NCBI GenBank assembly: GCA_964035015.1
Contig: OZ035998.1
Coordinates: 35,353,628 to 35,417,627 of the forward strand
Length of the DNA: 64,000 nucleotides
Source: Corallium rubrum
Taxonomy: Eukaryota > Cnidaria > Anthozoa > Scleralcyonacea > Coralliidae
Reading direction: 5' to 3'
The translations under genes were made by a program, and so were the position numbers. The notes under the pieces are model-generated. The model made no database searches and was not told where the DNA came from. It worked only from the letters and a program-made list of their open reading frames with translations. Of this stretch, positions 2,487 to 20,596 are shown piece by piece (the first letter of the stretch is position 1; each line of letters begins with the position of its first letter).

Positions 2487-2793
2487 TGGCCATTATTAAA
2501 AATATGGTTAATGTGGAATAACTATTATTCGAGAAAAGAAAAATATGTAAAGTGATATATTTTAGAATGCATACGTCAATATCTGCTCAAATATGATATC
2601 AGATTCTAATTTTGTTATTGGTTTAAAAAATACATTAACTTTGAAAGCAAGCCACGCTGTGAAGCTGCAGTGAAATCAAGTGAAATGACAACAAAATATC
2701 TAAATATTTTTCCGTTATAACACTTTCATAGTATGCAAACTCCATTAATAATTTTAAAGACCAATTGGAATAAGTCGAACTATAACATATATT

Positions 2794-2797
<4 letters not shown>

Positions 2798-2845
<48 letters not shown>
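2798..2845. repeat. (AT)n microsatellite at the left edge of the ribozyme satellite
   Basis: About 48 bp of TA dinucleotides run directly into the first satellite unit. A matching tract begins where the last unit breaks off at 3818. Confidence 0.9.
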
Positions 2846-2849
<4 letters not shown>

Positions 2850-2939
2850 TGTACTTCACTAATGCTGTCCCACATGCGGTTGTCACCGACAATCGCATGT
2901 GTATAAGTAATTGATGAAATTCATTCAGATTGTTCCAAG

Positions 2940-2981
2940 CTACACTGATGAGCTGTAGTACAGCGAAACACGTGTCTGTAG
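2940..2981 (+). ncRNA. Hammerhead ribozyme, satellite unit 1
   Basis: Stem I is CTACA paired with TGTAG, followed by core CTGATGA (2945-2951). Stem II is GCTGT-AGT-ACAGC (five pairs), then core GAAA (2965-2968). Stem III is ACAC/GTGT, either two pairs closed by an ACGT loop or a four-pair palindrome usable in a dimer. The predicted cleavage is after GTC at 2976. All invariant core bases of the family are present. Confidence 0.9.
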
Positions 2982-3215
2982 ATTGAACTATGTACGCTCC
3001 TTCACTTCGGTGTTGTTGAGCACTCTGTGAAGTTGCCATGGGTACCTATTAGCGATAATGCAACGCTCACTACCCTTGTGGAAGTTTGAGCACTCTGGGC
3101 CCATGCGCACTTCACACTATCTGAATGTACTTCACCAATGCTGTCCCACATGCGGTTGTCACCGACAATCGCATGTGTATAAGTAATTGATGAAATTCAT
3201 TCAGATTGTTCCAAG

Positions 3216-3257
3216 CTACACTGATGAGCTGTAGTACAGCGAAACACGTGTCTGTAG
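3216..3257 (+). ncRNA. Hammerhead ribozyme, satellite unit 2
   Basis: It is identical in all stems and core bases to the unit 1 motif: CTGATGA at 3221, GAAA at 3241, predicted cleavage after 3252, which is 276 bases from the previous site. Confidence 0.9.
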
Positions 3258-3490
3258 ATTGAACTATGTACGCTCCTTCACTTCGGTGTTTTGAGCACTC
3301 TGTGAAGTTGACATGGGTACCTATTAGCGATAATGCAACGCTCACTACCCTTGTGGAAGTTTGAGCACTCTGGGCCCATGCGCACTTCACACTATCTGAA
3401 TGTACTTCACCAATGCTGTCCCACATGCGGTTGTCACCGACAATCGCATGTGTATAAGTAATTGGTGAAATTCATTCAGATTGTTCCAAG

Positions 3491-3532
3491 CTACACTGAT
3501 GAGCTGTAGTACAGCGAAACACGTGTCTGTAG
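3491..3532 (+). ncRNA. Hammerhead ribozyme, satellite unit 3
   Basis: It carries the same intact motif: CTGATGA at 3496, GAAA at 3516, predicted cleavage after 3527, which is 275 bases from the previous site. Confidence 0.9.
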
Positions 3533-3766
3533 ATTGAACTATGTACGCTCCTTCACTTCGGTGTTGTTGAGCACTCTGTGAAGTTGCCATGGGTACCTAT
3601 TAGCGATAATGCAACGCTCACTAGTCTTGTGGATGTTTGAGCACTCTGGGCCCATGCGCACTTCACACTATCTGAATGTACTTCACCAATGCTGTCCCAC
3701 ATGCGGTTGTCACCGACAATCGCATGTGTATAAGTAATTGATGAAATTCATTCAGATTGTTCCAAG

Positions 3767-3808
3767 CTACACTGATGAGCTGTAGTAGAGCGAAACACGT
3801 GTCTGTAG
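3767..3808 (+). ncRNA. Hammerhead ribozyme, satellite unit 4 (stem II mutated)
   Basis: Core elements CTGATGA (3772) and GAAA (3792) and the GTC cleavage site (3803) are intact. The 3' side of stem II reads AGAGC instead of ACAGC, putting a G-G mismatch in a five-pair helix. The unit is cut short 10 bases after the motif, so activity is doubtful. Confidence 0.75.
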
Positions 3809-3812
3809 ATTG

Positions 3813-3815
<3 letters not shown>

Positions 3816-3849
<34 letters not shown>
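3816..3849. repeat. (AT)n microsatellite at the right edge of the satellite
   Basis: A 34 bp TA tract truncates the fourth satellite unit. Confidence 0.9.
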
Positions 3850-3851
<2 letters not shown>

Positions 3852-3950
3852 TGAGTTTTGGTTCACGAAATGTTAGAGAGTGCTCAATGCCGTGTAGATA
3901 GAGCAAAATATAAAGCATAAAGTATAGTTACCTTAAAGTCTTCGCTACCA

Positions 3951-3979
3951 GAGGTTTCACCCTAAACGGGATCATCAGG
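3951..3979 (-). ncRNA. Degenerate hammerhead-like motif at the end of a PLE
   Basis: The minus strand reads CTGATGA, TCCC-loop-GGGT, GAAA, then CCTC. Both core blocks flank a three-pair helix closed by a U-U mismatch, and the short palindrome expected after GAAA is lost. It lies at the 3' end of the PLE-type remnant; PLE termini commonly carry hammerhead motifs. Confidence 0.4.
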
Positions 3980-5800
3980 CCACTGGGAAATATCGGTTGG
4001 TGGGCTGCTTAAATGCGTTGGTTGGGGCGTTGGTGTGGGCGTCGAAACGTCCGGCGCATTCCTTTGGAGCGTGGGTGTGGGCGTCGAAACGTTGCGCGCA
4101 TTCCTTTGATTGTTTAGGTTGTTGATCCGAAATCTGTTTTTGTGCCGACAGGTCGAAACTATTTCTGATCTTTTGTTTAGTAAAAATTGTTTGTCTGCCT
4201 TCATGATGAAAAGTTTTTCGTCCAAACATAAATTGCATCTTTTTGATCCTTCCGTGTAAGAAATTGAGTGCTTTGGTATAGACCAGGTTATGTCGAAACT
4301 TTGATTTTTTTCTTTTAGACTCTAAATGTATTTCGAAAGTTTCGTCTCGTTTGAATATTTTTTATTCTGGAAAGACTTAGTATGGTTACGATATCGCTCT
4401 TTGAATGTGCTTGCTGTCATGCATGCCAATGTATTGCTTAGTGATGTTCGTGTTGCTTGTGGAAATAGATGCCTTGGATACTATGTGTTTGTCATGCATT
4501 GCCCACGTAGGGGGCAATTGTCCTTAATCCTGCAATTGCAACTGCTTGTAACTATGCTTAGTGGCTTGTTTTTCCTGATTGTGCGTGAATTATGTTTCGT
4601 GATCATGATAATAGACGACGTTGTTCATGCAACTATAGCTAATCTTGACCGTTTCTGTTAAAAAATTTGTGAAGCTTGTGTCCTGGTGGAAAGTGCTTGT
4701 CAATAAGGCTAAGAAGATGCGTCCTATGTTTGTTTTGAAATTTTTGTTAAATGGAGGGTTAAACCAGATGATATTGCGGTGTCTATTTCTGCGTGTTTGT
4801 TGTGGTGCTTCATGTGTGTAGTTTAGCTCATGGTTGAAATTGCTGCGCCTTAATGCATTTTGGTAAGTTGGTGCGGTTTCATGGAATGTCCGCTCGTCAG
4901 AGGAGAGGAGGGGAATGCGCTTGTTGATTGATGTAGGTAGCTAGCTGTCTCAAAATGCTTGGTGGGTGGTTTTATTGCTTGTTTATGTATGATAGATCGT
5001 CATTGGGCCTTCGGAAAAGTTTGTATTTTCCATTGCTTAGGTCGAAAGTAACGTCTAAAAAGTTTACTGAAATGAAATTTGCTTCAAACTGTTCGAAACT
5101 TTTGTGAAGATCTTTTCTTGTTTTGTCTGCCAATCGTGCGGTCTTATTTTTTAGTACTGCAAATCCGTCGTCTCTGTATAGGCCAATATTTTGGTTGCCA
5201 AACTTTTTCCCTAGGTCGTTTAGAATGAGAAGGCCTACTATAGTTCGCATACTTCAGAGCCATCCTAGCTACCCATGGTAACGTCAAATAAACTGTTGCG
5301 GTCTTTTTTTATCCACGGTTTTTCGTTGTTGAAAAGTAGCGATTTTCTAGCGTGTTTTACTATTGAAATGTCATTTTCGGTATTGATAGCCAAATTTCTG
5401 GCCCAAGATAATGCTTGGTCCAGAAGGTCTTCAGAAATTGAAGGGTAGAAATTAACAATGTCAAACGAAATGAAGGTAGGTCTGCTTTTCTCTTCGATGT
5501 TGCCAAACCATTCGATTACTTCTTGTGTGTTTCTCCATTGATTTACGTTCAAAATGTTCCTTAACTAGAGTTGATTTTATCAAGAATTACTTTGCTGAGC
5601 TTTCCGGACTCACTTTTAGCGGATTAATTAATCGGCATGTTGGGTTGTTTTCGAAATTATCCTTATGGTCTTTGAGTGAAATAAATGTTTCGCGTTTTCT
5701 CATGTGTTCAATACGGTCGCCAATTCCCAAGTTATTCGAAATGTGTTTTAGTTCATTGTCTATCTGTTCTATGGTGCCCTCTGATCCATGTTTATATGTT
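3962..5800 (-). pseudogene. Reverse transcriptase pseudogene, PLE-type family A
   Basis: Read leftward through several frameshifts and stops, this gives a connected RT. It includes 'RETFISLKDHKDN' and 'NPTCRLINPLK' near 5700-5600, 'NVNQWRNTQEVIEWFG' and 'FISFDIVNFYPSISEDLLD' (RT motif A, 5552-5265), 'GLYRDDG' (catalytic YRDD-type motif, 5250-4972), 'VNFLDVTFDL', and 'NIIWFNPPF' and 'KISYSCMNN' near 4800-4640. The 3962-4240 end carries two ~45 bp direct repeats. From memory this family recurs in cnidarians and is related to Penelope-like elements; the GIY-YIG part is not recognisable here. It is a dead copy. Confidence 0.7.
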
Positions 5801-7960: not shown

Positions 7961-8219
7961 TATTAAGCTTTACAGAGTTTGTTATGTTAGCAAAGTGGTG
8001 ATTAAACACAGGGCCGGTGGAATATAAATTGAGGTCAGTTGCTGGGTATTACATTCGTGTTTAGGTAGACGTTGGAATCAGATCAAGAACAAACGCAAAG
8101 GTATTGTTTTTTAAATTTCCCGTTGTTTGACATGTATATTTTATATTTGCCCAAAAATATTCATTATTTCAACTTGCATGATGTTATATTAGCATCATGA
8201 AACAACTAAACCTTATCTA

Positions 8220-10097
8220 AATATGGTATAGTAGGTTAATACTGCCGAAACAGAGAACATAAGTGGTCTAACGTTTCGAGCGAAGGCCCTTCGTCAGAGA
8301 GAAACGTAAAGAGTAAAACAAACAACGAGCTTATATACGCGAGATAATCACGTGATAAAAATTAGCCAATCAGATAAAGGTAACCAAGACAAACTAATAA
8401 TGAGATTCAAAAGAATAAGCCAATCAGAGCAAAGTAACAATAACAAATAAATAATGAGATGTGAAAGCCATTTGCTATTCTCACCATCGATAAGTAAAAA
8501 AAAGAGAGTAAAAAATAGAGAGTAAAGAATGGAGAAGTAAAGTGAAAACACTGTTTATGTCTGCCCTTGCCAATACAAAAACAGCATCTTCAGAAGTGTT
8601 AAATAAAAGAAAAACGTTCGTTGAGTCCATGAGGATGAATGGTTCCAATTTTGAAAATGAGACGCTTTTCCTGTCGTTTGCGGCTATGATTACCACCGGA
8701 AATGGGTGAGATAGCACAAATTTTCATGTCAGAAATATGAAGGTTGACACTATTAAAATGTCGGGCAACAGGCTTGTCAACATCATTGTTCCTCACAGAA
8801 CGAAGATGTTCAGCAAACCTGTCAGATAAACGTCTGCCAGTTTCACCAATGTAGAGCATGCAGCATTTACTACAAGAAATACAGTAAATGAGGTTGGAAG
8901 AGGTGCATGTGAAATTATGCCGAATGGTGAAATTAGATTTGGGTCCTGAAATTAATGTGGCAGGGTCAAGAAACGAACATGTGTAGCATCGTGTGCGAGA
9001 ACAAGAAGTAGTACCCACAGGTGCCTGTAGATTTTCTCTAAGGGCACTGCGTATTAAACTATCCCGAATATTTTTATTGCGTCGAAAAGAGATCAAAGGG
9101 TTATCAGTGAAAATGGCAGATGTTTCAGGGTCATTCTTTAAGATGTGAAAATTATGGCTAATGATATCCTTAACTTTATAGTTGAAATGATGAAATGTGA
9201 GAACTAGTGGAATTTTATTATCAGAAAGTCTTTCCGAAGGTTGTTTTAAAGTGTCCGGACGGGGAATACTGGAAGCTTTATGAATAGCGGAGTCTAATAG
9301 GTGGTTAGGATAGCCACGTTGGACAAAAAAGCATCTCATTTCCAAAGATTTGGTCTCAAAATCTTTATCATCACTGCATAGGCGGCGAAGTCGCAGAAAT
9401 TGAAAATATGGGATGGATTGTTTAGTGTGGTTGGGATGAGATGATGAAAATAGAAGGTAGCTGTGTGAGTCGGTAGGCTTGTAGGAAACAGAAGTCGTGA
9501 GCGCATTACCACTAATCGACACCAAAACATCAAGGAATGACACACTGGTTTCACTGATTTCCCATGTGAATTTGAGTGCTGGATGGGAATCATTGACATA
9601 ATTGATAAATTTCTCTAAATTCACACGTGGGCATGATGCTGTTCCTAAACAGTCATCTATGTACCTCCCGAAGAAATCAGGAAGTGGTCCAGTATATAGT
9701 TCGAAGATTTGTTTTTCAACATAACCAACAAATAAGTTTGAGTAACTAGGGCCCATTTTGGTACCCATAGCAACTCCACTTATTTGTTGGTAATGTTCAC
9801 CATCAAAAGAAAAATTATTGAGGGTGAGTACAAGTTCTGCCAAGCGAAGTAATGTAGAAGTGGAAGGTTCTAAAATGGTGCGTTTGTTGAAGAAAAACTT
9901 CAGAACTTCAAGACCATCACAATGAGGAATAACAGTGTAAAGGGACTTGACATCCATGGTGAAAATATATTTGCTGGGATCAGTGAAATGTATTTGATCA
10001 AAAATCTGTAGGGCATGTCTTGTATCCTTGATATAATAAGGCAACTTCTTTACCAAAGGTGACATAACACGATCTAAAAAGCTGGAGTAGTATAGGA
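8220..10097 (-). mobile_element. Penelope-like element, copy 1 (5'-truncated)
   Basis: The element spans the RT/GIY-YIG frame and its ~380 bp 3' region. The latter ends in a hammerhead-like motif and is shared with copy 2 at 35262. The left boundary is where similarity to copy 2 starts (AATATGGTATAGTAGG). The right boundary is where RT similarity stops and unrelated GC-rich flank begins. Confidence 0.85.
8271..8297 (-). ncRNA. Hammerhead-like motif of PLE copy 1
   Basis: The minus strand reads CTGACGA, then A-GGGC-CTTC-GCTC, GAAA and the palindrome ACGT followed by T. Core blocks and a four-pair stem II are present, but one extra A lies between CTGACGA and the helix. The minimal palindromic stem III is the form reported for PLE ribozymes, which may act as dimers. 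Confidence 0.55.
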
Positions 10098-10437
10098 TAT
10101 GGGGGTACCAGGCCAGTTTATTTTGGGTGCTACGACAGGGATACCTCTCCTCCCCGAGGCGTAGACGAGATTTTTGTCCACTCCCAGGGATGTTTTTGGT
10201 TGGCCGCATGCACCACTTTTTTGAAGTTGCTGGAACCTCCGTTGGCCCCGGCCGTTGGCCCCAGCCGTTGGCCCCAGTGGTTGGCCCCGCTTGCCCCGTC
10301 AGCGCGGCCACTGGAACCACGGCATAGAACCACGGCTTGGCTATACGGGTGGTTATAGTTAATGGACCATCTGTTTTTGCCCCCGACTCGCCAGACCAGT
10401 CGGTTGCCGCCAGGAATCCAAAACCCAGGAATACCAA
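8599..10437 (-). CDS. PLE reverse transcriptase with GIY-YIG endonuclease (truncated N-terminus)
   Basis: The open frame is 612 codons. Residues ~1-113 are read-through of unrelated GC-rich flank; homology begins near residue 115 with 'YYSSFLDRVMSPLVKKLPYY'. RT motif A is 'FTMDVKSLYT' (159-168), motif B '[16 protein letters not shown]' (221-236), and the catalytic block 'RYIDDCLG' (258-265). A Cys-rich linker (C479-C487) leads to the GIY-YIG domain: 'LIYCISCSKCCMLYIG' (516-531), then R540, H544 and E590. In PLEs the RT copies the RNA and the GIY-YIG nuclease nicks the target. The N-terminal thumb/linker region of full PLEs is absent. About 490 codons without a stop suggest a young insertion. 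Confidence 0.85.
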   Translation of the reverse strand: MVFLGFGFLAATDWSGESGAKTDGPLTITTRIAKPWFYAVVPVAALTGQAGPTTGANGWGQRPGPTEVPATSKKWCMRPTKNIPGSGQKSRLRLGEERYPCRSTQNKLAWYPHILYYSSFLDRVMSPLVKKLPYYIKDTRHALQIFDQIHFTDPSKYIFTMDVKSLYTVIPHCDGLEVLKFFFNKRTILEPSTSTLLRLAELVLTLNNFSFDGEHYQQISGVAMGTKMGPSYSNLFVGYVEKQIFELYTGPLPDFFGRYIDDCLGTASCPRVNLEKFINYVNDSHPALKFTWEISETSVSFLDVLVSISGNALTTSVSYKPTDSHSYLLFSSSHPNHTKQSIPYFQFLRLRRLCSDDKDFETKSLEMRCFFVQRGYPNHLLDSAIHKASSIPRPDTLKQPSERLSDNKIPLVLTFHHFNYKVKDIISHNFHILKNDPETSAIFTDNPLISFRRNKNIRDSLIRSALRENLQAPVGTTSCSRTRCYTCSFLDPATLISGPKSNFTIRHNFTCTSSNLIYCISCSKCCMLYIGETGRRLSDRFAEHLRSVRNNDVDKPVARHFNSVNLHISDMKICAISPISGGNHSRKRQEKRLIFKIGTIHPHGLNERFSFI

Positions 10438-11030
10438 TGACCCAACCTATATGAAATTATTTTTCCATACAACATAAAGTTTACATCAGGTACGGTGGAA
10501 AAGACCACAGAGACCAAGTCGTTTGGCGATGGTCCCGAGCTTATGCTAAGAAGGACGCCCCCTTACTTCTTGGAGTCACCAAGGTCAAGTCAACCGTATG
10601 ACCATGTACCTAGCACCACACAACAGCCCCGAACAGCGGCAACCTGGAGTCCAGGCGGCCACACCGAGCCGAAGGCGAGGTGTTGGGCCGCAATCATACC
10701 AGGAGTCACCAGTGTAAAGTCTATTGTGAGTCAGATAAAACCTTCCAACAAATAGGCCAGTTTATTTTGCCCCCAACTCGCCAGACCAGTCGGTTGCCAC
10801 CGATCTTCCAAAATATAAGTCTTCACAGAATCCAAGTCAGATTTTATGAAGTGGTCCGCAGACTTAAAGAAACCACCTTTTGACTGTACGGAGAAAAATA
10901 TGTCAAATGCCAGCGTTTTTAGAGTCCTATATTTACAGCCTATACTAGCATAAGAGAAAATTGGGAATTTTAGCTGGTTTAGGCACTAGCACCACCTTTT
11001 TTACTCAGAAAACGCCCAACCACTCGTTCA
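10098..11030. other. Non-coding flank, possible left terminal region of the Polinton
   Basis: This is GC-richer than the surroundings. It holds a small minisatellite of the type CCGTTGGCCCCA (about 10230-10290) and two direct-repeat blocks: GGCCAGTTTATTTTG at 10111 and 10755, and a ~34 bp block containing CGCCAGACCAGTCGGTTGCC at 10377 and 10767. No gene is recognisable. Lying between the last Polinton gene and the PLE, it could contain the Polinton left terminal repeat, but the right end of the element is lost so this cannot be tested here. Confidence 0.4.
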
Positions 11031-12446
11031 CTACAGGACGTTTTTACTGAACAGATATCCGGCCACAGCTGTTACAACTAATATAATCCCCAGCTCATTA
11101 TCCGTCGTGTTTGTGCCAGGTGTGTGGATGGCTACATTATCAGTGTTTGTACCAGATGCATTTTCCTTATGAGGTGGCTTTTCCGGTTCCTCATCTAATG
11201 TTTCCAGATGTGGGACATATTCCTGGTGTAGCTTCTTTGGCTGCCTATGGACAACCTGCTGGTAGTTTACTTTAGAGTTAATACCAAATTTCATAGCATC
11301 AGACGCGTGTTTGAGTAAGTTGTTATATCCGATAATTTTTTTCTTCAGTATTGTGAGTGACCCTGGCACTAACCATGTGTCAGGACTTATGGCCAAGTTC
11401 TGGGTTACGTTAGTATCTGATATTGATCTGTTCATATTCAGAATCCAAGTGCTAACAGAGTAGTTAACGACGGCGTCATTTACGAGGACTCTGAATTCCT
11501 GTTGTGACTCCAGACTTCCAGCACCCTTCTTAACGATACTTACCCTTGTTTTAGCTTGAGAGCCTAGCACTGCATAGACATAAGCCTCGATAGACTCGTT
11601 TATATATTGTAGCCCTATCCTGGTAAAACCATCTGTCTTAAGTGGTATGAACCTTCTGTAGTGTGTTTTATAATCAGGGTTAAGACGCCACATCCACTCC
11701 TTAAATGCACGGTCATGATGCTGACCAGAGTGTGGATTAATCAGGAACTTTTTCTCTCTAGGTATATTATCCATATTGTCGATTACATCCTTCCCAGCAC
11801 CAAATTCCCTCATTAGATCACTTTTCTTTTCCTTTATAAGGCGCCTTAGTATACGTCGGGTAGTGAAGTACACATGGAAGCCCATAATAGACGTAACCAC
11901 TGGATAAACATCATCGGAGAACTTTAGATGCTCAACCCCAACACCACAGCAGTACGTACTTAGGTAGACGGCAAAGATTAGCTGGTAGTAGGGTTCGTTG
12001 TTATTCCACCACACAGCAATATCCGTCCTATTTCCTGGGTTAAGTACTGGCAATTTAGACATGAAAAAGTTATGGTCGTTAACATAGATCCTGAAATTGT
12101 TAAGGTCATAGTCTATAACATTTTCTGATAAGTATGTGAACTTTGAGAAGTCGTGTTTTCCCTCAACATCCTTCTCCCAATGTCTTTTTCCCTGGACTTT
12201 CTGCACGGTACCACCACCTAACCATATTTTTGGGAATCTTGGCGGTGGCTTATCTATCGTCAGGTACTTGGTATAGTTTTCATTACTTTTAAATTCCTGC
12301 TCCTCGGTGAAAATGTATGTTTTATCAGAGCCGACAGGTCCGAAGAACACACCTGGTTCTGTCTTACCAAATACCGAGCTAGTTATGAACTTACTTTTGT
12401 CAGCATATGGGTACTTAGCGAAGAATCTATTTAGGGTCCTGTTCAT
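11031..12446 (-). CDS. Conserved Polinton protein with C-terminal membrane anchor, function unknown
   Basis: The product is 471 aa. It is a largely soluble, aromatic-rich protein with a central segment 'YYQLIFAVYLSTYCCGVGVEHL' (split here: YYQLIFAVYL at ~153, then STYCCGVGVEHL) and 'FHVYFTTRRILRRLI' (~191-205). A low-complexity Pro/Thr/Asn stretch (~410-450) precedes one hydrophobic segment at the extreme C-terminus (~451-469). From memory, proteins with this pattern accompany capsid genes in cnidarian Polintons; a virion or assembly role is inference. The start ATG at 12446 follows CTATAGTAT, like other starts in the element, and overlaps the end of the next gene by 20 bp. The frame is intact. 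Confidence 0.75.
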   Translation of the reverse strand: MNRTLNRFFAKYPYADKSKFITSSVFGKTEPGVFFGPVGSDKTYIFTEEQEFKSNENYTKYLTIDKPPPRFPKIWLGGGTVQKVQGKRHWEKDVEGKHDFSKFTYLSENVIDYDLNNFRIYVNDHNFFMSKLPVLNPGNRTDIAVWWNNNEPYYQLIFAVYLSTYCCGVGVEHLKFSDDVYPVVTSIMGFHVYFTTRRILRRLIKEKKSDLMREFGAGKDVIDNMDNIPREKKFLINPHSGQHHDRAFKEWMWRLNPDYKTHYRRFIPLKTDGFTRIGLQYINESIEAYVYAVLGSQAKTRVSIVKKGAGSLESQQEFRVLVNDAVVNYSVSTWILNMNRSISDTNVTQNLAISPDTWLVPGSLTILKKKIIGYNNLLKHASDAMKFGINSKVNYQQVVHRQPKKLHQEYVPHLETLDEEPEKPPHKENASGTNTDNVAIHTPGTNTTDNELGIILVVTAVAGYLFSKNVL

Positions 12447-12978
12447 ATACTATAGGTTGTGTACTATTACCAGTCAGTTTGGTCTTATGCTGGTATATAT
12501 GCTTACCAGTTATGGCAACACCTCCGAGTAACCCTATAAGGGGTATGTATGGGCTAACTACTGATATAATACTCTCAACATCTTTTCTCAGTATGCCATT
12601 ATTTTTAAGTTCATCTGTTAGCGCAACAGGATCCTCAATTGCGTCAAGACCACCAAGCATTGTTGAGAACTGGCTTATTATTAAATCTGTCAGGAACCCA
12701 TCTGCGTCCTTTTTCCTCTTAGCTTCATAGGCCTTGTAAATTTTGTCTAATGTCTTCTCACTACATTTTCTTATATGCCCAGACTTCTGAGTGATGTACC
12801 CATCATCAGATGCAGTTATAAGTTCCTCACGCCTGGTGTCTATGCTAGGTTCCTCAGTGATCACAGTTTTAGCAATACTCTCTTCCACAACCTGTAGCTC
12901 ATCAACTAGTTTTTCAATAGCCTCATCTTCAATAACAACTGGCTCAGACTTACTGCGCTTACCTTCCCTCTTTGGCAC
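12427..12978 (-). CDS. Small Polinton protein with basic/acidic N-terminus, unknown function
   Basis: The open frame is ~183 codons. The N-terminus has a nuclear-localisation-like basic run (KREGKRSK), followed by an acidic helical region and a segment 'SQFSTMLGGLDAIEDPVALT'. Near the C-terminus is a glycine-rich hydrophobic stretch (~145-160) that could be a membrane helix. There is no ATG in the first ~108 codons: the frame opens at GTG (12978) just after an in-frame stop, and the nearby ATG is in another frame. Either translation starts unusually or the start is damaged. The position between ATPase and the 471-aa gene suggests a virion-associated role; this is inference only. Confidence 0.55.
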   Translation of the reverse strand: MPKREGKRSKSEPVVIEDEAIEKLVDELQVVEESIAKTVITEEPSIDTRREELITASDDGYITQKSGHIRKCSEKTLDKIYKAYEAKRKKDADGFLTDLIISQFSTMLGGLDAIEDPVALTDELKNNGILRKDVESIISVVSPYIPLIGLLGGVAITGKHIYQHKTKLTGNSTQPIVYEQDPK

Positions 12979-12993
12979 ACATTAGGTTATGTT

Positions 12994-13589
12994 TCATTTA
13001 ACTTCATAGGTTGGTGGTTGCGTACTGAGTCTGATGTCAAGGTATTTTCCTGTAGCAAGCTGCGCAATGATAGACTTCTCCGTTTCACTGTCTGCTATAT
13101 GTCCGAAGAACTCATCCCTCAACACCTTCATACTTCTCCTGTTATGTGTGCTGAAAAATAACAGTCTAGTGGTATTGTCCCTTATACCAGTCGCGACACT
13201 ATTCAGCTTCTGAGTGAGAATGAACAATGTGATATTATGATGCCTGCCACTGTATGATAAAAAGCCAGCATGCCATCGTTAAGATGTTGATCACCTGTGT
13301 TACTCATGTCGTCAACTATTACCGCAGTCTTAGACCCAGAGTAAATTTTCACTATAGCCTCAATAATAGGATCTAGTTTATCTGGGCTTATGCTAAGTCC
13401 GATGACATCGGGGTCACTATTCAGGTATCCCCAGTCTAGGTATGTCGTATTTATCCACAGTGTGGGACAGAGTATTATGATGAAGTCAAAATACTTCCCG
13501 TACTCTACAGAAAGTATTTCGTTAAGCAATGTGTAAGTCTTACCACACCCAGATGGTCCAACTATCAGAATAGTCTCTGGCTTATCCAT
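12994..13589 (-). pseudogene. FtsK/HerA-type (A32-like) DNA-packaging ATPase, frameshifted
   Basis: It would pump the element genome into a capsid. The first piece (13589 to ~13255) has Walker A 'GPSGCGKT' (residues ~10-17) and Walker B 'TAVIVDDMS' (~89-97). The rest of the family signature, the arginine/histidine block and 'LFILTQKL' sensor strand followed by 'STHNRRSM', continues in a different frame down to 12994. The frames switch inside a run of T (minus strand) near 13255, a single-base length change, and the first frame then stops at 13203. This could be a true inactivating mutation or a homopolymer error in the assembly. The start ATG at 13589 is preceded by TTAGTGT and abuts the capsid gene stop. 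Confidence 0.9.
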
Positions 13590-13592
13590 ACA

Positions 13593-14828
13593 CTAATACT
13601 GAATAGACTGAAGCTGACCATTAGCCAGGTTGATTAACCCATCCGACAGCACGTAAAGGTAGCAGGTACAGGCAGTGGTCCCAGCACTTTTCTCAACCTC
13701 GATAAGTATTCCGTTTTGTGTATCAGTCAGCTTTACACCCTGACCCTGTACCCTCTTTAACGCTGTTGTTGAGAAGTCGCAAACCAAGGCAAACTTATCA
13801 CTGAAGAAATTCGCCTCACTAACATTCCTATCAAACCGGTCATCACTTGGGAAGAACACCCGGCTAGCCTCACTGAAGAAATCGTACTTCTTCATCGACT
13901 GTGTGTACAGGAAGTTTGGCTGGCCCTGAAAACTTATCTTAACACTCTCAATAGATGGGTAGTAGAAAGACTCACTTCCATCAGTGGTTCTTTTAAAGAT
14001 CATTACGATATTTCTCAGAGACTTTCTCGGTAAGTTCACATTCTCATGGATCTTTGTGCTGGCAGCAGTTACTGGAAAGGTTTTAACTAGGGTTGCATGG
14101 CCGTAGTAGGAAGATTTCCCTCTACTGTAAATCCCCTCAACCTCACCCGCTAACATCTCATTCTCAACTGTCTCGTACCTCAACTTTAGGTTGTCAAGCC
14201 TGAAGCTACCTGGCACAGCCTTACCACTACCACCGGGTAGCAATACATTACCCGGACTGTTAATTTTCAGTATAGTCTCATGTGTGTTTTGCGATGCCTG
14301 GGGGTAGATAGCTCCATTCTCACTAAGCCAATCATCATCAATAGGCACTGTGAATCTGTCACCATAGACACCATTTACAAGAGCATCACCAGCAACGCTA
14401 GAATCACCACTAGCGTCCTGACTCCTTAGCTTAGCAAGGTTCACACTCCCACCAAGACCCTGGTCAATTTTTCCAACCCGCTTTGACTTAGACCAAAGGT
14501 CCTCATAACACCTGAGAACATGGGCTTCATTCAGGTCCCTGTATATTTCCCCATTAAGCTTGTGGGTTACTTGCTTGAACAGTGTGGACTTAAGGTTGTT
14601 CTGATGGTATGACTCCTTGTTACCATTTTTCAGGGTGAATGTAAGCATCCTACTACCAGGAATTAGTACATGATTAACTGGTAGTGTCGACAGCTTTACA
14701 TAAAGGTCTTGACCAGAGGATATATGTGTTGGGTTAAATGTTACGTCGACTACTCTCCTAGTGCCTTTCTTACTACTGTCCGGTTTCTTTAGTTTGTAGC
14801 TCGGATTGATTCTATCTTCCTGCAACAT
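13593..14828 (-). CDS. Major capsid protein candidate (jelly-roll type)
   Basis: The product is 411 aa, predicted almost all beta strand, with no membrane segment. Features include 'VLIPGSRMLTFTLKNG' (~55-70), 'VTHKLNGEIYRDLNEAHVLR' (~87-106), 'YEDLW' and a late 'FRLDNLKLRYETVENEMLAG' segment (~206-225). From memory this order (valine/glycine strand pairs, a 'DLW' block, then an 'L.YE.V' strand) is that of capsid proteins in cnidarian Polinton-like elements, which fold as double jelly rolls. Placement directly upstream of the packaging ATPase and in one operon-like block with penton and integrase supports the call. No mutation is visible. Structure prediction would decide it. Confidence 0.68.
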   Translation of the reverse strand: MLQEDRINPSYKLKKPDSSKKGTRRVVDVTFNPTHISSGQDLYVKLSTLPVNHVLIPGSRMLTFTLKNGNKESYHQNNLKSTLFKQVTHKLNGEIYRDLNEAHVLRCYEDLWSKSKRVGKIDQGLGGSVNLAKLRSQDASGDSSVAGDALVNGVYGDRFTVPIDDDWLSENGAIYPQASQNTHETILKINSPGNVLLPGGSGKAVPGSFRLDNLKLRYETVENEMLAGEVEGIYSRGKSSYYGHATLVKTFPVTAASTKIHENVNLPRKSLRNIVMIFKRTTDGSESFYYPSIESVKISFQGQPNFLYTQSMKKYDFFSEASRVFFPSDDRFDRNVSEANFFSDKFALVCDFSTTALKRVQGQGVKLTDTQNGILIEVEKSAGTTACTCYLYVLSDGLINLANGQLQSIQY

Positions 14829-14843
14829 AGACTAAGTTATATC

Positions 14844-16370
14844 TTATTTCTTTTTTCCATATCTATCATAAACCACCCATACGATCGCCAGAACCAACAC
14901 CCACAGATTGCTAGCCAACCAGGCCAGACCCATGGCACCATACTTTAGCAGAGCAACTATCAGGTTACCAACCGCCATGATAATAGGACCTAACACTGGG
15001 CCGAGTTTCTTTGCCAGATTCCTAAAGGCGTTATAGACTGACCGTCCAAATGATCCGACAGCGTTAGCACCTCTTTTGATATTATAGTGCATTTCCATTA
15101 TTACCGTCGTCAGAAGGGAAGCCACAGCTACAGCAAGCGATGTCGCACCAAGCCAGTTCTCCTTCATCCACTTCTTAAAACGTTCTAACCTAGACAGATC
15201 TTCTATACTCTCATTACCATCAACCTCTTCCTCAAACACTACCCTAGCCTCACTATATTTAGGGACACCACCTTTCTCAACAATATGTATTAGATCAGAC
15301 TTAAGCTCAGCAACCTCCTGAATACTTCTATACAGTTGCTCCTTCAGATTGTCGGTCTCTCTCAAAGCCTTCAGTCTGTATTCATTAGCCAACTGGTCCA
15401 GTGCTTCTATCTTAGTGTCGGCATCCCCCTTAGGATTCAGCATCCCTGAGAACTCACGAATCTCCTGCTCTGTAAGCTCACTGGCCCTCTCACGTAACCT
15501 CCCACCGATCTCTGAAACAGCTGACTCAACTATTTCCATGACTAAACCCTGGGGTATGTCTGGAAGACTAACTGGGTCATTACCTGTCCCGTCAAAAATG
15601 GTGGTGTCACTAAGGTCCATAAGAAGTCTGTCTATCTTCTCCCCCGGTTTTAGTCTAACACCGTGCCTGTTCTTATCCCTAACCATAGCCTCAATCACCT
15701 CAGGTGTGTGCTCGGCATACTCATTTTCACTAACCACATCACTAACTACTTCCTTACTTACCCCTGTTTCATCTACCAATGACTCTATATAGTGACTTGT
15801 AAGCACTACTACATGTTCAACTAGTTCGGTGAACTCCTTCTCTGTGTCTGACCCCACATTAAGTTTCTCAGTGATAGGGTTACCACTATCGTCATCACGG
15901 GACGTGTTAATCAACCTGACGTCTACACTACGGTAACTAAGAGTTAGCTCGTGACCGCCTGATACGACTTTCCCACTTTTCCCAAAAGAGACGCCCCGTA
16001 TTATTTCCAGACCAGGCTCATTATTTAGTATGGGTCTAGTAGTAAGACCTTCAGATACAGTTAAGAACGATCTGATAAGCCTAACCGCCTTGTTCTGTTT
16101 ATATCTCGACAATTTTTTACTGAAGGTGCCTTTATTAGTTATCAAATTGTTAACGAAGTCCCGTAGATTATCCTTAATTCCTACTCTCCTAACATTAGTA
16201 ATGTCCCTACCCTCATAGTTTATGTCCTCATCAATCCATTTAGTCTCAGCATAAGGGTCTTCATCCTGAAATAACGGGTCATCATATTCTGACCACTCTT
16301 CACCATCCCCTTCACCATTTTCAGGAGGATTGTTTTCAAAGTCGTCAAATACGTCACCACCTTCAGCCAT
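14844..16370 (-). CDS. Acidic coiled-coil protein with C-terminal membrane domain, virion-type
   Basis: The product is 508 aa. Residues 1-55 are strongly acidic (DEDPYAE, DEDINYE). Residues ~290-370 are long charged helices, probably coiled coil. After a basic 'RLERFKKWMKENWLG' hinge (~397) come at least three hydrophobic segments between ~410 and 503, ending 'YDRYGKKK'. The C-terminal 'LAWLASNLWVLVLAIVWVVY' signature recurs, from memory, in Polinton proteins of cnidarians. A role at an inner virion membrane or vertex is inference. The start ATG at 16370 follows TTAGTGTATAG; the gene lies 8 bp from the integrase and 15 bp from the capsid gene. Confidence 0.75.
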   Translation of the reverse strand: MAEGGDVFDDFENNPPENGEGDGEEWSEYDDPLFQDEDPYAETKWIDEDINYEGRDITNVRRVGIKDNLRDFVNNLITNKGTFSKKLSRYKQNKAVRLIRSFLTVSEGLTTRPILNNEPGLEIIRGVSFGKSGKVVSGGHELTLSYRSVDVRLINTSRDDDSGNPITEKLNVGSDTEKEFTELVEHVVVLTSHYIESLVDETGVSKEVVSDVVSENEYAEHTPEVIEAMVRDKNRHGVRLKPGEKIDRLLMDLSDTTIFDGTGNDPVSLPDIPQGLVMEIVESAVSEIGGRLRERASELTEQEIREFSGMLNPKGDADTKIEALDQLANEYRLKALRETDNLKEQLYRSIQEVAELKSDLIHIVEKGGVPKYSEARVVFEEEVDGNESIEDLSRLERFKKWMKENWLGATSLAVAVASLLTTVIMEMHYNIKRGANAVGSFGRSVYNAFRNLAKKLGPVLGPIIMAVGNLIVALLKYGAMGLAWLASNLWVLVLAIVWVVYDRYGKKK

Positions 16371-16377
16371 CTATACA

Positions 16378-17466
16378 CTAACCAATATTCTGGATATCAC
16401 TCTCAGGTACCCAGCTATTATGCTTGCTATCATACCCGAGCCACTTCACCAGGGCCATCTTCTTTTTCCTCTTCAGTATTTTCTCCACCTTATAAACATG
16501 ATCCTTCTTAACAACAGCACTTAGCTCCTCTTCATAAAACTTCCCAATTATTGGCTCACCCTCTAAGTCCGCTATTTCATAAACATTTGGATCACCCCTA
16601 ATCACCTTAGTCACCTTGAATAGTTCCTCTGTGAAGTTAGCCTCATAACCTTTAGTGAATATGCTTTTGTACTTACTTATCCTGACAGTATCACCAACTT
16701 TAAATTTAGCTAGGGGGTATTCTCCAAAGGTGTGGCCAAATAAGGTGTTCCACACTTCAACCTCATTACTTTTATTAACATTAGCAGGTTTCATCAGTAT
16801 AGTTCTGTGCTTACTGTTATTGTAATTACTAACCAGCGAGTCTAGAACATCAGTCCACTTATATGTTCCCTTACTGTAGAAGTACTTCCACATAGCCGTC
16901 TTGAGGGTTCTGTTGAACCGTTCCACAACAGCAGCCTTCTTATCTGATAGAGTGCTAAAGTACTTAGCACCAGCTCCCTCCAGTAAGGACCTCACCCCAA
17001 CATTGTAAAATTCCTTACCATCGTCAAACTGCACCAGTTCTGGATCCGCTCCCAAACGCTTCTTGAATTTCTTAAGTAACAACGTTACCGCCTTGGTCAT
17101 ACTTCCAGTGTCTTTCCTATACACAGGGATGGCAAAGGCATATCTGCTTAAAATTTCAACAGCCGTTAGTATCCAACGGTATCCCCCATTCTTATTCCCA
17201 TAATTACCCATATCAACAAGATCCATTTGAAGCTGCTCACCAAGGTAGTAAACCCTAGTCTGTCTGAACTTATGCTTACCAACTATTTTCCTGTACCGTG
17301 TAAAAGTGTCCTGCGATTTTAGCCACTCAGTGACCTTACTCCTACTCACACCTGGGAGACCATCCACCAAGGCTCTCTGGTAAAGTCTCTCAGCTGACTG
17401 ATAACCAGTTGCCGGATTATAGTATATATCTCTAAGCCCCTGTTCCAACTCTATGTCATTGTCCAT
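16378..17466 (-). CDS. Polinton integrase: retroviral-type DDE core plus C-terminal chromodomain
   Basis: The product is 362 aa and catalyses strand transfer of the element ends into host DNA. An N-terminal helical region (1-70) precedes the rve core: first Asp in 'LQMDLVDMG' (D82), second in 'VQFDDGKEF' (D148), and Glu in 'VVERFNRTLK' (E182), a D,D-33-E spacing. A small SH3-like part ('KFKVGDTVRISKYKS', 255-268) follows, then a chromodomain at ~325-362 ('YKVEKIL', 'ALVKWLGYD', 'NSWVPESDI'), expected to bind modified histones and guide target choice. The frame is complete and no catalytic residue is missing. It is the clearest diagnostic gene of the element. The start follows AGAGTAT. Confidence 0.96.
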   Translation of the reverse strand: MDNDIELEQGLRDIYYNPATGYQSAERLYQRALVDGLPGVSRSKVTEWLKSQDTFTRYRKIVGKHKFRQTRVYYLGEQLQMDLVDMGNYGNKNGGYRWILTAVEILSRYAFAIPVYRKDTGSMTKAVTLLLKKFKKRLGADPELVQFDDGKEFYNVGVRSLLEGAGAKYFSTLSDKKAAVVERFNRTLKTAMWKYFYSKGTYKWTDVLDSLVSNYNNSKHRTILMKPANVNKSNEVEVWNTLFGHTFGEYPLAKFKVGDTVRISKYKSIFTKGYEANFTEELFKVTKVIRGDPNVYEIADLEGEPIIGKFYEEELSAVVKKDHVYKVEKILKRKKKMALVKWLGYDSKHNSWVPESDIQNIG

Positions 17467-17471
17467 ATACT

Positions 17472-18137
17472 CTACGGGATGTACAGCTCCAGCAATATAC
17501 TCCCAAAACCATTAAGCGGGTTTCCATTCTGATCTGTCACATGGAATTCCAACTCGTTTATAACACCTTTACCAATTTCCAGCTCTGTCTCAATGTCAAC
17601 AAATGACTGTGTCGAACCGAACAGCGGCTGCTCACTAGTGACTGGAAGACTCACTAGGGTGTTACTCTTCCTTCCATTACACAGGTTCATTGATGTAGAT
17701 ATCACATTACACATCACCACCAAGTACTTCAGCCCATTATTCACATTTATCAACCCACTCTTTGTGCTACTGCCTGGCAAGAATATACGGGTGCTGAATC
17801 CCAGTAAAGAGGATAAGTTGTTATGCAGTACTAGAGTCGTGCTACTGTCGGTCACCATCGTACACTTAGCCTCTGGTTTACTAAGTGTTAATGTAACCCC
17901 GCTGTTCCCCTCAAGTATCTTCTTAAAATCCTGGAATGTGTAGTAACCATCCCCAAGGAATTTGTTCACCCTCTTATTGTGAACATAGTAGTTACCCTTA
18001 CTGCTGGATACATTATAGTACTCCCACATTATGTAGGCCTTCTTCAGCAGAATATGAGGATTTTTCCCTGTCAGTATAGGCTCCTCCAGTCTAATAACCT
18101 TATGTGATCCCTCTATAATCGCAGTAAGTTTCCTCAT
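17472..18137 (-). CDS. Penton-like minor capsid protein candidate
   Basis: The product is 221 aa and beta-rich. A 'GYYTFQDFKKIL' motif (~64-75) is followed by 'LLGFSTRIFLPGSS' (~110-123), 'VSLPVTSEQPLFGS' (~162-175) and the C-terminal strand set 'GKGVINELEFHVTDQNGN' with 'GSILLELYIP' at the end. From memory this is the pattern of the single-jelly-roll penton proteins of Polintons, which occupy capsid five-fold vertices. It is the first leftward gene, starting 40 bp from the divergent fibre-like gene. The frame is intact. Fold prediction against Polinton and virophage pentons would confirm or reject it. Confidence 0.6.
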   Translation of the reverse strand: MRKLTAIIEGSHKVIRLEEPILTGKNPHILLKKAYIMWEYYNVSSSKGNYYVHNKRVNKFLGDGYYTFQDFKKILEGNSGVTLTLSKPEAKCTMVTDSSTTLVLHNNLSSLLGFSTRIFLPGSSTKSGLINVNNGLKYLVVMCNVISTSMNLCNGRKSNTLVSLPVTSEQPLFGSTQSFVDIETELEIGKGVINELEFHVTDQNGNPLNGFGSILLELYIP

Positions 18138-18177
18138 AATATAGATAATATTATGGCAGGCTTATATGTCCTAATAT
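18138..18177. promoter_or_regulatory. 40 bp divergent promoter between capsid block and fibre block
   Basis: The two ATGs at 18137 (minus) and 18178 (plus) are separated only by this AT-rich spacer, which contains ATATTATC near the leftward start and CTTATATGTCCTAAT before the rightward start. Both starts carry the CTA-AT-AT-ATG-like context shared across the element. A bidirectional late promoter is inferred from the geometry. Confidence 0.5.
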
Positions 18178-18921
18178 ATGAGTCTTAATTTAGGTTTTAG
18201 CAATGGCACTGATACAACCACCACCAACGCCCTAGATGGTAAGGCAACGGGAGACATTAATATGGAAGGATTTCAGATAAGCCATCCCAGATATCCGTCA
18301 GATGGTACTCATGTGACTTGCAGGGATTATGTAACCGGGGAATTTCTCGCTAAGAGGGACAAACTAAAAGGTACAGCAACAGGAGACATTGATATGGGGG
18401 TGTACGGAATAACCCAGAGTAAGAAAGCAACTGAGGACAACCACCTGATAAATAAGAAGTATGCCACAGAAAAGTTCGCTAAGAAGGAAAATTACAGACT
18501 TAACGCCACAATGGTCTGGTACTACCAAGCAACTGGTGGAACGCCGGAAGCACTCAATAGTAACGCCTACCCAATGGTCCCAGTAAGTAAGGACACCATG
18601 ATAAGAACATTATGCCACTCGTTCGACACAGATGGCGTCGTGCCTGACAATGTTGTTTAGGTTGCGTACCGTCTGTACTATGTCACCTATAAAGATACAC
18701 AAGGTTCCGAGCTACTGGGTACACTAACCTTAGGTAATGCAGATAGACATTATAGCGGTCACTGGTCTATACCTGTTAATCATGACTTCTATGTGAAAGA
18801 TACTATCTCAGCACAGCAGGCTACTAATAAACCATCTGTCGGTTACATCTACCCAACAATAACTGGGCTGACTAGTGGTAATGAGAGTTGTCTAACTGTA
18901 GCGTTTTACGAGCCTGTTTAA
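18178..18921 (+). pseudogene. Fibre-like attachment protein candidate interrupted by an amber codon
   Basis: The same frame runs 248 codons from 18178 to the TAA at 18919, except for TAG at 18658-18660. The first part has two copies of a shaft-like repeat, 'ATGDINMEGFQISHPRYPSD' and 'ATGDIDMGVYGITQSKKATE', each followed by a 'YVTGEF/YATEKF' step. This resembles GD-L-M-G repeats of phage tail fibres and Polinton fibre shafts. The part after the stop is a beta-rich globular segment ending 'CLTVAFYEPV'. A role in host attachment is inference. The stop could be inactivating, read through, or an error. The context of the gene is the head of the rightward block. Confidence 0.65.
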
Positions 18922-18934
18922 TCCTGCCTATGTT

Positions 18935-19471
18935 ATGCTTAACAGAGAGAAGAGTATAATAAGATTCAACCACATATCCGATAAGCTTAGCTCGGAAGAG
19001 GTTGAGATGTTAAAGTCACTTTATGAGCATTACCACATGATGGCTACCTGCTACCAGTGGCAATTTAAGAGACTCTCTAGGATCAATCTTACCATGAACA
19101 TGTCTGCTATCTTCCTGACAGTTGCTGGCGGAGCACTTAGCGCATTGGGTGGATTTGCTACATTATCTATAAGTGCTGTCGGGCTTCTTATGCATGGGTA
19201 TATCAAGAATAAGAGAATAGCGGAGAAAGTCAGTCAGTGTGAGGTGGCATACAAGAGCTATACAAAATCCCTGAATACAATCAAAGGATATCTGAGAGGT
19301 ATTGAGTTTGACAGATCAACAATGTTCAGCAACCTGACCATGGTAGACAACATAATAAATGACAGCACTATGCCATTGGAGAAGAAAATAAAGGATAGGT
19401 ATAGTAGGGTCTACAGAGGCCATGCGTATATGAAATCATCGGAGTATTATGGCGGGCTTAGGGGAGTTTGA
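18935..19471 (+). CDS. Two-TM membrane protein with flanking helices (SLATT-like architecture)
   Basis: The product is 178 aa. An amphipathic N-terminal helix (~17-45) leads to a hydrophobic hairpin of two membrane helices (~52-69 and ~72-88, 'GGALSALGGFATLSISAVGL'), then a long basic helical tail with 'VAYKSYTKSLNTIKGYLRGI' and 'KDRYSRVYRGHAYMKSSEYY'. This helix-TM-TM-helix layout resembles SLATT-type proteins, but I see no diagnostic residue and do not assign the family. The end overlaps the next gene by 23 bp. The 'RGHAY' motif is repeated in the neighbour (residues ~86-90 there), hinting at interaction or shared origin. Confidence 0.7.
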   Translation: MLNREKSIIRFNHISDKLSSEEVEMLKSLYEHYHMMATCYQWQFKRLSRINLTMNMSAIFLTVAGGALSALGGFATLSISAVGLLMHGYIKNKRIAEKVSQCEVAYKSYTKSLNTIKGYLRGIEFDRSTMFSNLTMVDNIINDSTMPLEKKIKDRYSRVYRGHAYMKSSEYYGGLRGV

Positions 19472-20252
19472 GATGAATGCTTTAGGTAGTTATAAGGTTC
19501 CTAACGGTGATGACAGCCAGGTTGCTGACTACACACCTCAAACTGAGGAAACAGATTTCGGTGGAACAGAGAGTGTTGATCCTGGCAGAGATACTGCAGA
19601 GCCGCAGGGACTACATTTAGGTAGAACTGTTAATCAGCAGGAATATTACACTGACAGTCATTCCAGAATACTTGTTGGTGAGGATAGGATGAAGAAGATC
19701 AGGAGAGGTCACGCGTATAGAGACACGGAGGATTTCTTCACTAACATTCTAAACCTCGAGCCTGGATGTAATGATCCAAGGTTCGTAGACTACCTGCTGG
19801 ACAATGGTACCCTCGAGATCACTAGGGAGCTGAGCGATACAGGTCTTGTTAATGACTACTCTGTGAAGTACCTTGGCGGTGAGTTCATATCAATTGGAAG
19901 GGTTCTCACAGATGAGGATAGTGATATGCTAAGGACTGGTATAAGGGAGTACTATGATGAGTGGCAGAGAAAGATGCTTAGAAAGACTATGAAGAGGGCT
20001 GGTGTGATAGTGGATATTGGTCTTAGCATAGCGGCGATAGTCACAGGGCTAGCAGTTGGACTAACAAGAGGAGGCTCAGATGTGATACATGCGGGGAAGA
20101 AGAGGAGAAAGTGGGAGAAGCTTAACCCAGCTAAGGTAAGTATACCATGGTCAGATATTGAGGAGGCTGGTGGAGATGTCCTAGTATTTACTGGTAAGTA
20201 TCTCACAGTTATCTTAGCGGTATCTGCAGTGTATCTAACAGCAAGACGGTAA
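19449..20252 (+). CDS. Membrane-anchored Polinton protein, unknown function
   Basis: The product is 267 aa. An acidic, low-complexity N-terminus (1-75) precedes a soluble region with 'RRGHAYRDTEDFF' (~85), shared as RGHAY with the preceding gene. Two hydrophobic segments follow (~188-206 and ~247-264), separated by a basic loop 'AGKKRRKWEKL'. It starts inside the previous gene (overlap 19449-19471), indicating tight packing. No catalytic motif is seen. A virion membrane protein is a guess. Confidence 0.7.
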   Translation: MAGLGEFEMNALGSYKVPNGDDSQVADYTPQTEETDFGGTESVDPGRDTAEPQGLHLGRTVNQQEYYTDSHSRILVGEDRMKKIRRGHAYRDTEDFFTNILNLEPGCNDPRFVDYLLDNGTLEITRELSDTGLVNDYSVKYLGGEFISIGRVLTDEDSDMLRTGIREYYDEWQRKMLRKTMKRAGVIVDIGLSIAAIVTGLAVGLTRGGSDVIHAGKKRRKWEKLNPAKVSIPWSDIEEAGGDVLVFTGKYLTVILAVSAVYLTARR

Positions 20253-20275
20253 GTAAACCTGAGGTAATCTATAAG

Positions 20276-20596
20276 ATGCCTGACAGTAAAGACCCCAAGA
20301 TCACTACTGATGTTAAGACTAAAGATCCCAAACGTGTAGAGGCAGGTAAGAGGCTGGCAGCAATATCCAAAGCAGCTAAAGAGAAGAAGATGAGGGAGAG
20401 AATAAAGATGGATGAGCCAGATTCCTCATGGTCATTACCTTCTAATGGATATATGTTAGGACTAGCAGGACTTCTGGTAGCGGGTGTGTCATTATACTTC
20501 ACATGGAAAAGTGACAGGAGGGAGGTAGCTGCTGCTGCTGTCATCACCCCTGCTGCGGAACCAGAGACCATGAGCAGCAAGCTGGAGACATTGTAA
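20276..20596 (+). CDS. Small single-TM protein with basic N-terminal helix
   Basis: The product is 106 aa. A Lys/Asp-rich N-terminus contains 'DPKRVEAGKRLAAISKAAKE' (~17-36), then one membrane helix (~60-75, 'LGLAGLLVAGVSLYF') and an Ala-rich tail. From memory, 'DPKRVEAGKRLA' peptides recur in small proteins of cnidarian Polintons. It is 23 bp from the previous gene and 18 bp from the next. Function unknown. Confidence 0.7.
   Translation: MPDSKDPKITTDVKTKDPKRVEAGKRLAAISKAAKEKKMRERIKMDEPDSSWSLPSNGYMLGLAGLLVAGVSLYFTWKSDRREVAAAAVITPAAEPETMSSKLETL

Follow-up and report, generated by a model that had tools for sequence, protein, structure and literature searches.

The tandem array analyzed here, which lies in a 64-kb stretch of Corallium rubrum DNA (the window), is one copy of a dispersed family and not a satellite. 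With a probability of roughly 0.7, we interpret it as a single insertion of a non-autonomous retrozyme of the metazoan (non-LTR) type, moved by the cycle proposed below, with the Penelope-like (PLE-like) element that ends at 3850 on the minus strand as the candidate autonomous lineage. The anatomy of the insertions suggests that a PLE-like reverse transcriptase (RT) starts inside the RNA, beside a hairpin common to the two elements, and copies it into (TA)n by target-primed reverse transcription. The larger element next to the array, which has the same landing-site preference and the small RNA hairpin, probably does the copying of the retrozyme.

The features of the array and of its right flank are listed in Table 1. 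TRF placed the repeat at 2842-3818, with a period of 276, 3.5 copies and 98% matches. The 276-bp unit has a GC content of 47%, within the range of metazoan non-LTR retrozymes (150-450 bp, <50% GC). At its 5' end the array is truncated within a unit, the first base being ambiguous with the TA tract, and at its 3' end (3815) it stops at the base of stem I of a hammerhead ribozyme (HHR). All four HHRs contain the stem I strands CTACA/TGTAG, CTGATGA, a stem II, GAA(A), the palindromic stem III ACACGTGT and a GTC site. The preliminary description had assigned these parts, with a five-pair stem II, to all four units; the motifs, the GTC site and the palindromic stem III stood, and the five-pair stem II was found in three of the four, the last copy having a mismatch (GCTGTAGTAGAGC). 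The end of this last copy is the 3' junction of the insertion. The predicted cleavage sites were 276, 275 and 276 nt apart, as had been stated. Because stem I resumes past an internal loop (CAAG/ATT) as GTTC/GAAC, a pairing also bracketed in the HH9 alignment, the ribozyme is by sequence a canonical and not a minimal type I hammerhead. Motif and pairing agree with a type I hammerhead with a loop-bearing stem I, and its activity is putative.

Table 1. Coordinates of the retrozyme array and of the adjoining PLE-like element (positions within the window)
Feature	Position	Strand	Remark
5' flanking (TA)n tract (target)	2787..2846	.	TRF
Retrozyme array	2846..3815	+	3.5 units of 275-276 bp
Hammerhead 1	2932..2988 (descriptor match 2940-2981)	+	canonical type I with outer stem I GTTC/GAAC; predicted cleavage after 2976
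Hammerhead 2	3208..3264 (descriptor match 3216-3257)	+	predicted cleavage after 3252
Hammerhead 3	3483..3539 (descriptor match 3491-3532)	+	predicted cleavage after 3527
Hammerhead 4	3759..3815 (descriptor match 3767-3808)	+	stem II mismatch; predicted cleavage after 3803
Hairpin module a, unit 1	2996..3026	+	GCTC..TTGAGCACTCT; 7 nt downstream of the 3'-junction equivalent
Hairpin module a, unit 2	3272..3301	+	
Hairpin module a, unit 3	3547..3577	+	
Hairpin module b, unit 1	3065..3096	+	
Hairpin module b, unit 2	3340..3371	+	
Hairpin module b, unit 3	3616..3647	+	
(TA)17 tract	3816..3849	.	lies between the 3' ends of the retrozyme and of the PLE-like element
Decayed PLE-like element (candidate partner lineage)	3850..5564	-	3' end at 3850
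PLE-like element, RT pieces	5564-5268, 5253-4975	-	
PLE-like element, further piece	4940-4593	-	
PLE-like element, C-terminal piece	4321-3965	-	
PLE-like element, hammerhead-like motif	3953..3978	-	CTGATGATCCCGTTTAGGGTGAAACC; motif only, stem I weak here
PLE-like element, hairpin module	3877..3904	-	one stem-2 pair broken in the window copy

A descriptor scan of both strands of the 64-kb window found these four HHRs and no others; in 60 Markov-shuffled 64-kb windows scanned in the same way there were two matches, both in one window. In the covariance-model check proposed in the preliminary description, Rfam returned no match over the whole window at the gathering threshold, and below the threshold it listed copy 4 alone (E=1). 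On a 1-kb stretch all four copies matched below threshold, copies 1-3 with HH9 (21.3 bits, E=0.019; gathering score 52) and copy 4 with RF00163 (22 bits, E=0.017; gathering score 34). Such scores may be what is expected for a two-pair stem III with a palindromic ACGT loop. The unit is highly self-paired, like the RNAs of metazoan non-LTR retrozymes: its linear fold had -95.3 kcal/mol (z=-5.4), and folded as a circle it had z=-4.5 against 60 shuffles, with 70% of the bases paired. The putative unit-length circle of 275-276 nt is predicted to carry the junction ..CACGTGTC joined to TGTAGATTGAAC.

To define the family, the source genome (474 Mb, 312 contigs) was searched. A DNA search with the unit, as suggested in the preliminary description, found dispersed copies, with at least 95 matches when the best 40 of 760 candidates were scored. 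When the HHR pattern was searched with a tolerance of 3 mismatches, 552 matches were obtained genome-wide, a count of HHRs and not of separate insertions, and none in the reversed control. This agrees with the many copies of metazoan non-LTR retrozymes. The earlier proposal of a retrozyme family is supported. Two samples were then used. Sample 1 consisted of the 40 best DNA matches among the 760 candidates (the window array is L048), and these loci had 1.6-10 units (median, 2.0). Sample 2 consisted of 20 further loci, the exact HHR matches listed first on contig C1, with 22 insertions; 16 of these 22 HHR-picked insertions were less than one unit long.

The 3' end of the insertions was fixed. 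In sample 1, 39 of 40 loci ended at ..TGTAGATTGAA(C/A), the foot of HHR stem I, usually followed by (TA)n; this usual end lies 12 nt beyond the predicted cleavage site. The exception, L022, ended at the cleavage site itself. In sample 2, 20 of 22 insertions ended at GAAC, the exceptions being L083, which was 2 nt shorter, and L075, which was cut elsewhere. L083, L084 and L088 are probably one event, since all three are located in copies of one host repeat. Of 61 insertions, 54 had a (TA)5 stretch no more than 30 nt from the 3' end, and 43 of 60 had one equally close to the 5' end, compared with a window background of 1.1%. The insertion of L074 lies within a host repeat, at a tract rich in TC/TA, and the paralogous copy in L036 is an uninterrupted (TA)n without an insertion. 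Any target site duplication, which in metazoan non-LTR retrozymes is longer than 4 bp when present, would be masked by the TA tract. The 5' ends varied, with hot spots. Microhomology between template and TA at the 5' junction averaged 1.72 nt, against 0.68 nt in simulations. This average covers the 29 of 61 insertions whose TA flank was clean and leaves aside 32 that lacked such a flank or were unmappable; counted at 16 distinct start points, the excess had p=1.5e-4. Several loci showed further arrangements. In L036, at about 2492-2504 (minus strand), a 13-nt CTGTAGATTGAAC directly precedes (TA)n and is perhaps an extremely truncated retrozyme. L080 contains two retrozyme copies in opposite orientation with their 3' ends outward, as double-strand priming would give. 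In L024, L034, L077 and L081, a single (TA)n tract lies between the opposed 3' ends of different HHR elements, an arrangement also present in the window.

The substitution patterns bear on how the arrays arose. At 16 family-polymorphic columns, the mismatch between units was 3.7% within loci and 21.9% between loci. Among the variant columns, deletions included, 92 were common to all units of a locus and 345 were partial, and where at least three units covered a column, 111 substitutions were confined to a single unit and 10 were present in more than one. L011, with 7 units, had no private difference, and L013, with 10 units, had 30 private substitutions in 2,760 nt. Since locus-specific variants are common to the units and the other differences are mostly confined to single units, each array arises in one step from one template; once made, the arrays age with little homogenization. 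The term satellite array, used in the preliminary description, therefore does not apply: the copies are dispersed and short, and their variant sharing and unit counts do not agree with concerted evolution in long arrays. The usual 3' end extends across the cleavage site, which means that the template was uncut or religated there. Several rounds of one sequence favor a circular template, and rolling reverse transcription round such a circle is the best explanation. Both units of L026 carry a C3 change in the core that is expected to inactivate the HHR; the template at this locus may therefore have been uncut or cut by a helper. Transmitted substitutions in the family-1 arrays showed a transition excess (76:9, against 152:115 among private ones), which remained after removal of duplicates (p=0.0018). 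They were rarer in the HHR (7 shared and 52 private, compared with 78 and 215 elsewhere; raw p=0.019), a depletion that is suggestive only, as it was no longer significant after removal of duplicates and clustered changes (4/41 versus 35/166, p=0.12). Selection for preserved RNA pairing among transmitted changes, initially at p=1.5e-5, was discarded when duplicates were removed (p=0.38).

Another family, unrelated to the first, has its end at the equivalent point of the structure. The loci fetched for family 1 also contained six HHRs that differ in sequence and belong to units of 229-231 bp, and the four array ends of this family 2 there read TGTAGT followed by TA. In a genome search for family 2, 40 array loci were counted, with the best 40 of 493 candidates scored. 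Of these 40 array 3' ends, 20 were picked by terminal match, 18 were others, and L017 and L081 completed the set; 33 of the 40 were at TGTAGT, the foot of stem I. Among the 20 ends picked by terminal match, 19 had five or more TA repeats within 20 nt. The seven exceptions were L109-L114 and L126: L126 and L111 end 2 nt earlier and L112 and L113 at other points, all four against (TA)n; L110 lies in (GT)n, L114 extends further, and L109 is disrupted.

Both families contain, twice per unit, the motif TTGAGC(A/G)CTCT. Outside retrozymes, it was found at the 3' ends of other HHR-bearing elements, including the right flank of the window array (minus strand). Together with its 5' half, it forms a GCTC-stem-loop-stem-TT-GAGC-RCTCT hairpin. 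The retrozyme start sites are 7 and 8 nt before this hairpin, the same relation as that of the short PLE-like end described below. Pairing in stem 2 was assessed in 11 lineages (4 retrozyme sites and 7 PLE-like groups), and covariation was counted by a script because MAFFT could not anchor the hairpin (A1, A2). At the first four stem-2 positions, 40 of 44 were paired, against 26.5 when partners were shuffled, and none of 50,000 shuffles was as good; slid controls gave 10-17. For three positions, the count was 31 of 33 against 21.9 (p=1.2e-4). Module a of family 1 paired poorly at two of the four positions. In this set, fam1a and fam2a were included, the truncated L016 was left out, and L040 and L044, whose hairpins are identical, were counted as one. 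L039 stood for lineage G, the window and L081 copies having one broken stem-2 pair, and fam2a was taken from L036, the L081 copy having TC for TT. The structured module pattern had 121 matches in 312 kb, a set enriched for these elements by choice, and none in 100 shuffled windows. We consider it reasonably probable that the RT of a PLE lineage that bears hammerheads and targets (TA)n recognizes its RNA by this hairpin, which two otherwise unrelated retrozyme families carry beside the start site at the foot of their ribozymes.

The PLE-like element (5564-3850, minus strand) abuts the array across the (TA)n tract, and its relatives include L022 and L024. Its RT was 24% identical over 156 aa to that of the canonical PLE ORF of the window (pair E=2e-7), a weak link in which that ORF was the sole reference; tblastn between the two gave 1.8e-4. 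In the relative L024, GIY-YIG (PF01541) was matched with E=0.0013 and 19.4 bits, below the Pfam cut-off of 22.6. We use the name PLE-like because the RT was compared with the canonical PLE alone and the GIY-YIG match is below the cut-off. The ORFs examined were broken or partial. A C-terminal piece of an RT/GIY-YIG-like ORF was found upstream of the hairpin module, on the same strand, in L018, L022, L040, L044, L063, L072 and the window. Downstream of the C-terminal piece, 14 ends could be compared, and all 14 had GAAAC with an HHR-like core or its remnant. All 14 also had (TA)n within 275 nt, a count that is biased because most loci were fetched around TA-borne retrozymes. An exact or near-exact module preceded the TA tract at eight of them (L040, L044, L022, L063, L018 minus, L072, the window and L081), and the exact module was missing from five. 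In L080 and L034, TC replaces TT and stem 2 still pairs, a variant found after the covariation test and not counted there; in L018 plus, L024 and L066, TA was reached before any module; and the sole module match of L085 lies beyond its TA tract.

For the element of the window type, 20 ends were fetched, chosen to cover both kinds of end. All six short ends read CATGCTTTA followed by TA, just before the hairpin; their junction lies 3-9 nt before it and is ambiguous because of the TA. Among the other 14, ten read AACTCACT followed by TA, L133 and L136 are close variants against TA, L137 lies in (CA)n, and L143 is truncated. The ends of L141 and L142 have a short TA stretch only, and their flank is common to both. 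Judged by motif and 3' ends, the PLE-like lineage has a hammerhead motif and an optional 3' tail. The distance from start to cleavage site is 12 nt in the retrozyme and longer in the PLE-like elements. This lineage is the likely mobilizer of the retrozyme.

Mobilization by the PLEs of the window had been proposed in the preliminary description. The proposal holds in that the PLE-like element beside the array is the best candidate, and it is weakened for the two canonical PLE copies at 8215-10446 and 35252-36844 (both minus strand), in which no match to the hairpin module was found. These copies contain minimal HHR-like motifs at 8297-8272 and 35334-35309; Rfam found no hammerhead on the canonical PLE end, and a PDB search with the PLE ORF found nothing. 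The canonical PLE family has two alternative 3' ends, and some copies abut TA tracts, while many lie outside them. The HHR-like motif of the canonical PLEs also occurs as a head-to-head pair, 58018-58043 (minus) and 58060-58085 (plus), inside a palindrome. Elsewhere in the window, a near-perfect inverted repeat of 800 bp (95%), a large palindrome, occupies 1-800; the region 11000-26300 encodes an integrase core with a chromodomain, BRO-N and endonuclease VII, a gene set we take to be Maverick/Polinton-like; and 41623-51827 is a tandem duplication of ~5 kb, with pieces 89-98% identical and (TA)n tracts inside.

We propose the following cycle. Judging from the motif, the HHRs would cut an array transcript into RNAs of 275-276 nt, and a host ligase would circularize them, as has been published for other animals. 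The RT of the PLE-like element, with its GIY-YIG-like endonuclease, would then recognize the HHR and the GCTC..TTGAGCRCTCT hairpin and nick a (TA)n tract. Copying would begin at the fixed internal site at the base of HHR stem I, which precedes the hairpin by 7-8 nt; the start site, the hairpin and the target in this scheme are those read from the insertions themselves. One or several turns round the presumed circle would give the identical tandem units of one insertion, in keeping with its single-step origin. The 5' end would stop at varied places and be joined to (TA)n, where the excess of microhomology is statistically evident.

Several other explanations were weighed against this cycle. The tandem units and their 98% matching are also what would be seen in ordinary satellite DNA that contains a chance HHR and is spread and homogenized by unequal exchange. 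We regard this as very improbable, as the family is dispersed (552 HHR matches), nested sharing of variants is scarce (111 single-unit against 10 multi-unit substitutions), and a fixed 3' end is combined with a variable 5' end, mostly against (TA)n. It is also rather improbable that the element brings (TA)n with it as a tail instead of inserting into it. Some loci have TA on the 3' side only (5' 43/60, 3' 54/61), as a tail would give, but most insertions have TA on both sides, and the empty (TA)n at L036 that is paralogous to L074, though one case, argues for a target.

The more serious alternatives concern the template and the enzyme. The same PLE-like RT might copy uncut linear multimer transcripts, the HHR being dispensable and no circle being formed. 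The usual 3' junction 12 nt past the cleavage site, which calls for an uncut or religated template, would agree with this, as would the core change in both L026 units and the insertion of uncut RNA by PAc in vitro (PMC11167929, in the part drawn on here). However, 16 of the 22 HHR-picked copies do not reach the length of one unit, and templates that stay linear would therefore be likely to lose length at each round; arrays of 7 and 10 units of one template sequence fit rolling copying better; we therefore think the linear template unlikely. Another RT, that of a LINE or of the canonical PLEs of the window, might instead prefer (TA)n, with the hairpin serving otherwise, for example as a promoter or for stability. 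A LINE-type endonuclease and other RTs are present, and the canonical PLEs also have two 3' ends, some of them abutting TA tracts. Against this, the canonical PLEs of the window have no module match and many of their copies lie outside TA tracts, whereas the module adjoins the start site in retrozymes and PLE-like elements alike; this explanation appears doubtful to a similar degree. Copying of a circle by the PLE-like RT remains the reading we prefer.

Parts of this picture resemble known systems. The metazoan non-LTR retrozymes, as described in the parts of Cervera & de la Pena 2020 (PMC7229834) used here, have type I HHRs, tandem repeats of 150-450 bp, GC below 50%, many copies and highly self-paired RNA, with PLEs in the same genome, and the C. 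rubrum family is like them in HHR type, unit size, GC, copy number, self-pairing and PLEs in the genome. Unlike that account, as far as it is drawn on here, the C. rubrum family resolves a 3' insertion point, a (TA)n target and a hairpin common with a PLE-like lineage; there, PLEs are named only as a strong candidate mobilizer, and the portion of PMC11722881 consulted leaves the choice between LINEs and PLEs open. In axolotl HHRs, according to the same part of PMC7229834, helix III is short and cleavage is most efficient in dimers. The short stem III of the present HHR (two pairs and a tetraloop) is like that of HHR_Amex2 of newt and axolotl, and a dimer is expected to work better; HHR_Amex2 differs, by its description, in a unit of 330-350 bp and far more copies. 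PAc, the Penelope-like element Poseidon of Anolis, is similar in that, in the sections of PMC11167929 relied on, reverse transcription begins internally, downstream of the HHR, at an AT-rich target and from two adjacent start sites (tail), which the two-end pattern of the window-type PLE-like element resembles. In the same sections, HHR cleavage was not required for insertion in vitro. PAc differs in being autonomous and in starting about 85-92 nt after the HHR cut (coordinates of the text), in coding sequence. The W elements of Schistosoma share satellite-like HHR repeats, dispersed copies and a possible target site duplication, and differ in that no TA targeting is given in the excerpt of PMC8490949 used.

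If this reading is true, the PLE-like lineage would be the first autonomous partner to be identified for any animal retrozyme, and its target-primed reverse transcription would begin inside a circular RNA and run round it. It would also explain dispersed hammerhead "satellites" as insertions and not as satellites. The junctions supply a start nucleotide, a target, a candidate for the RNA handle and an enzyme lineage; with these, retrozyme mobility becomes a question for the bench, with one purified RT and a 276-nt circle.
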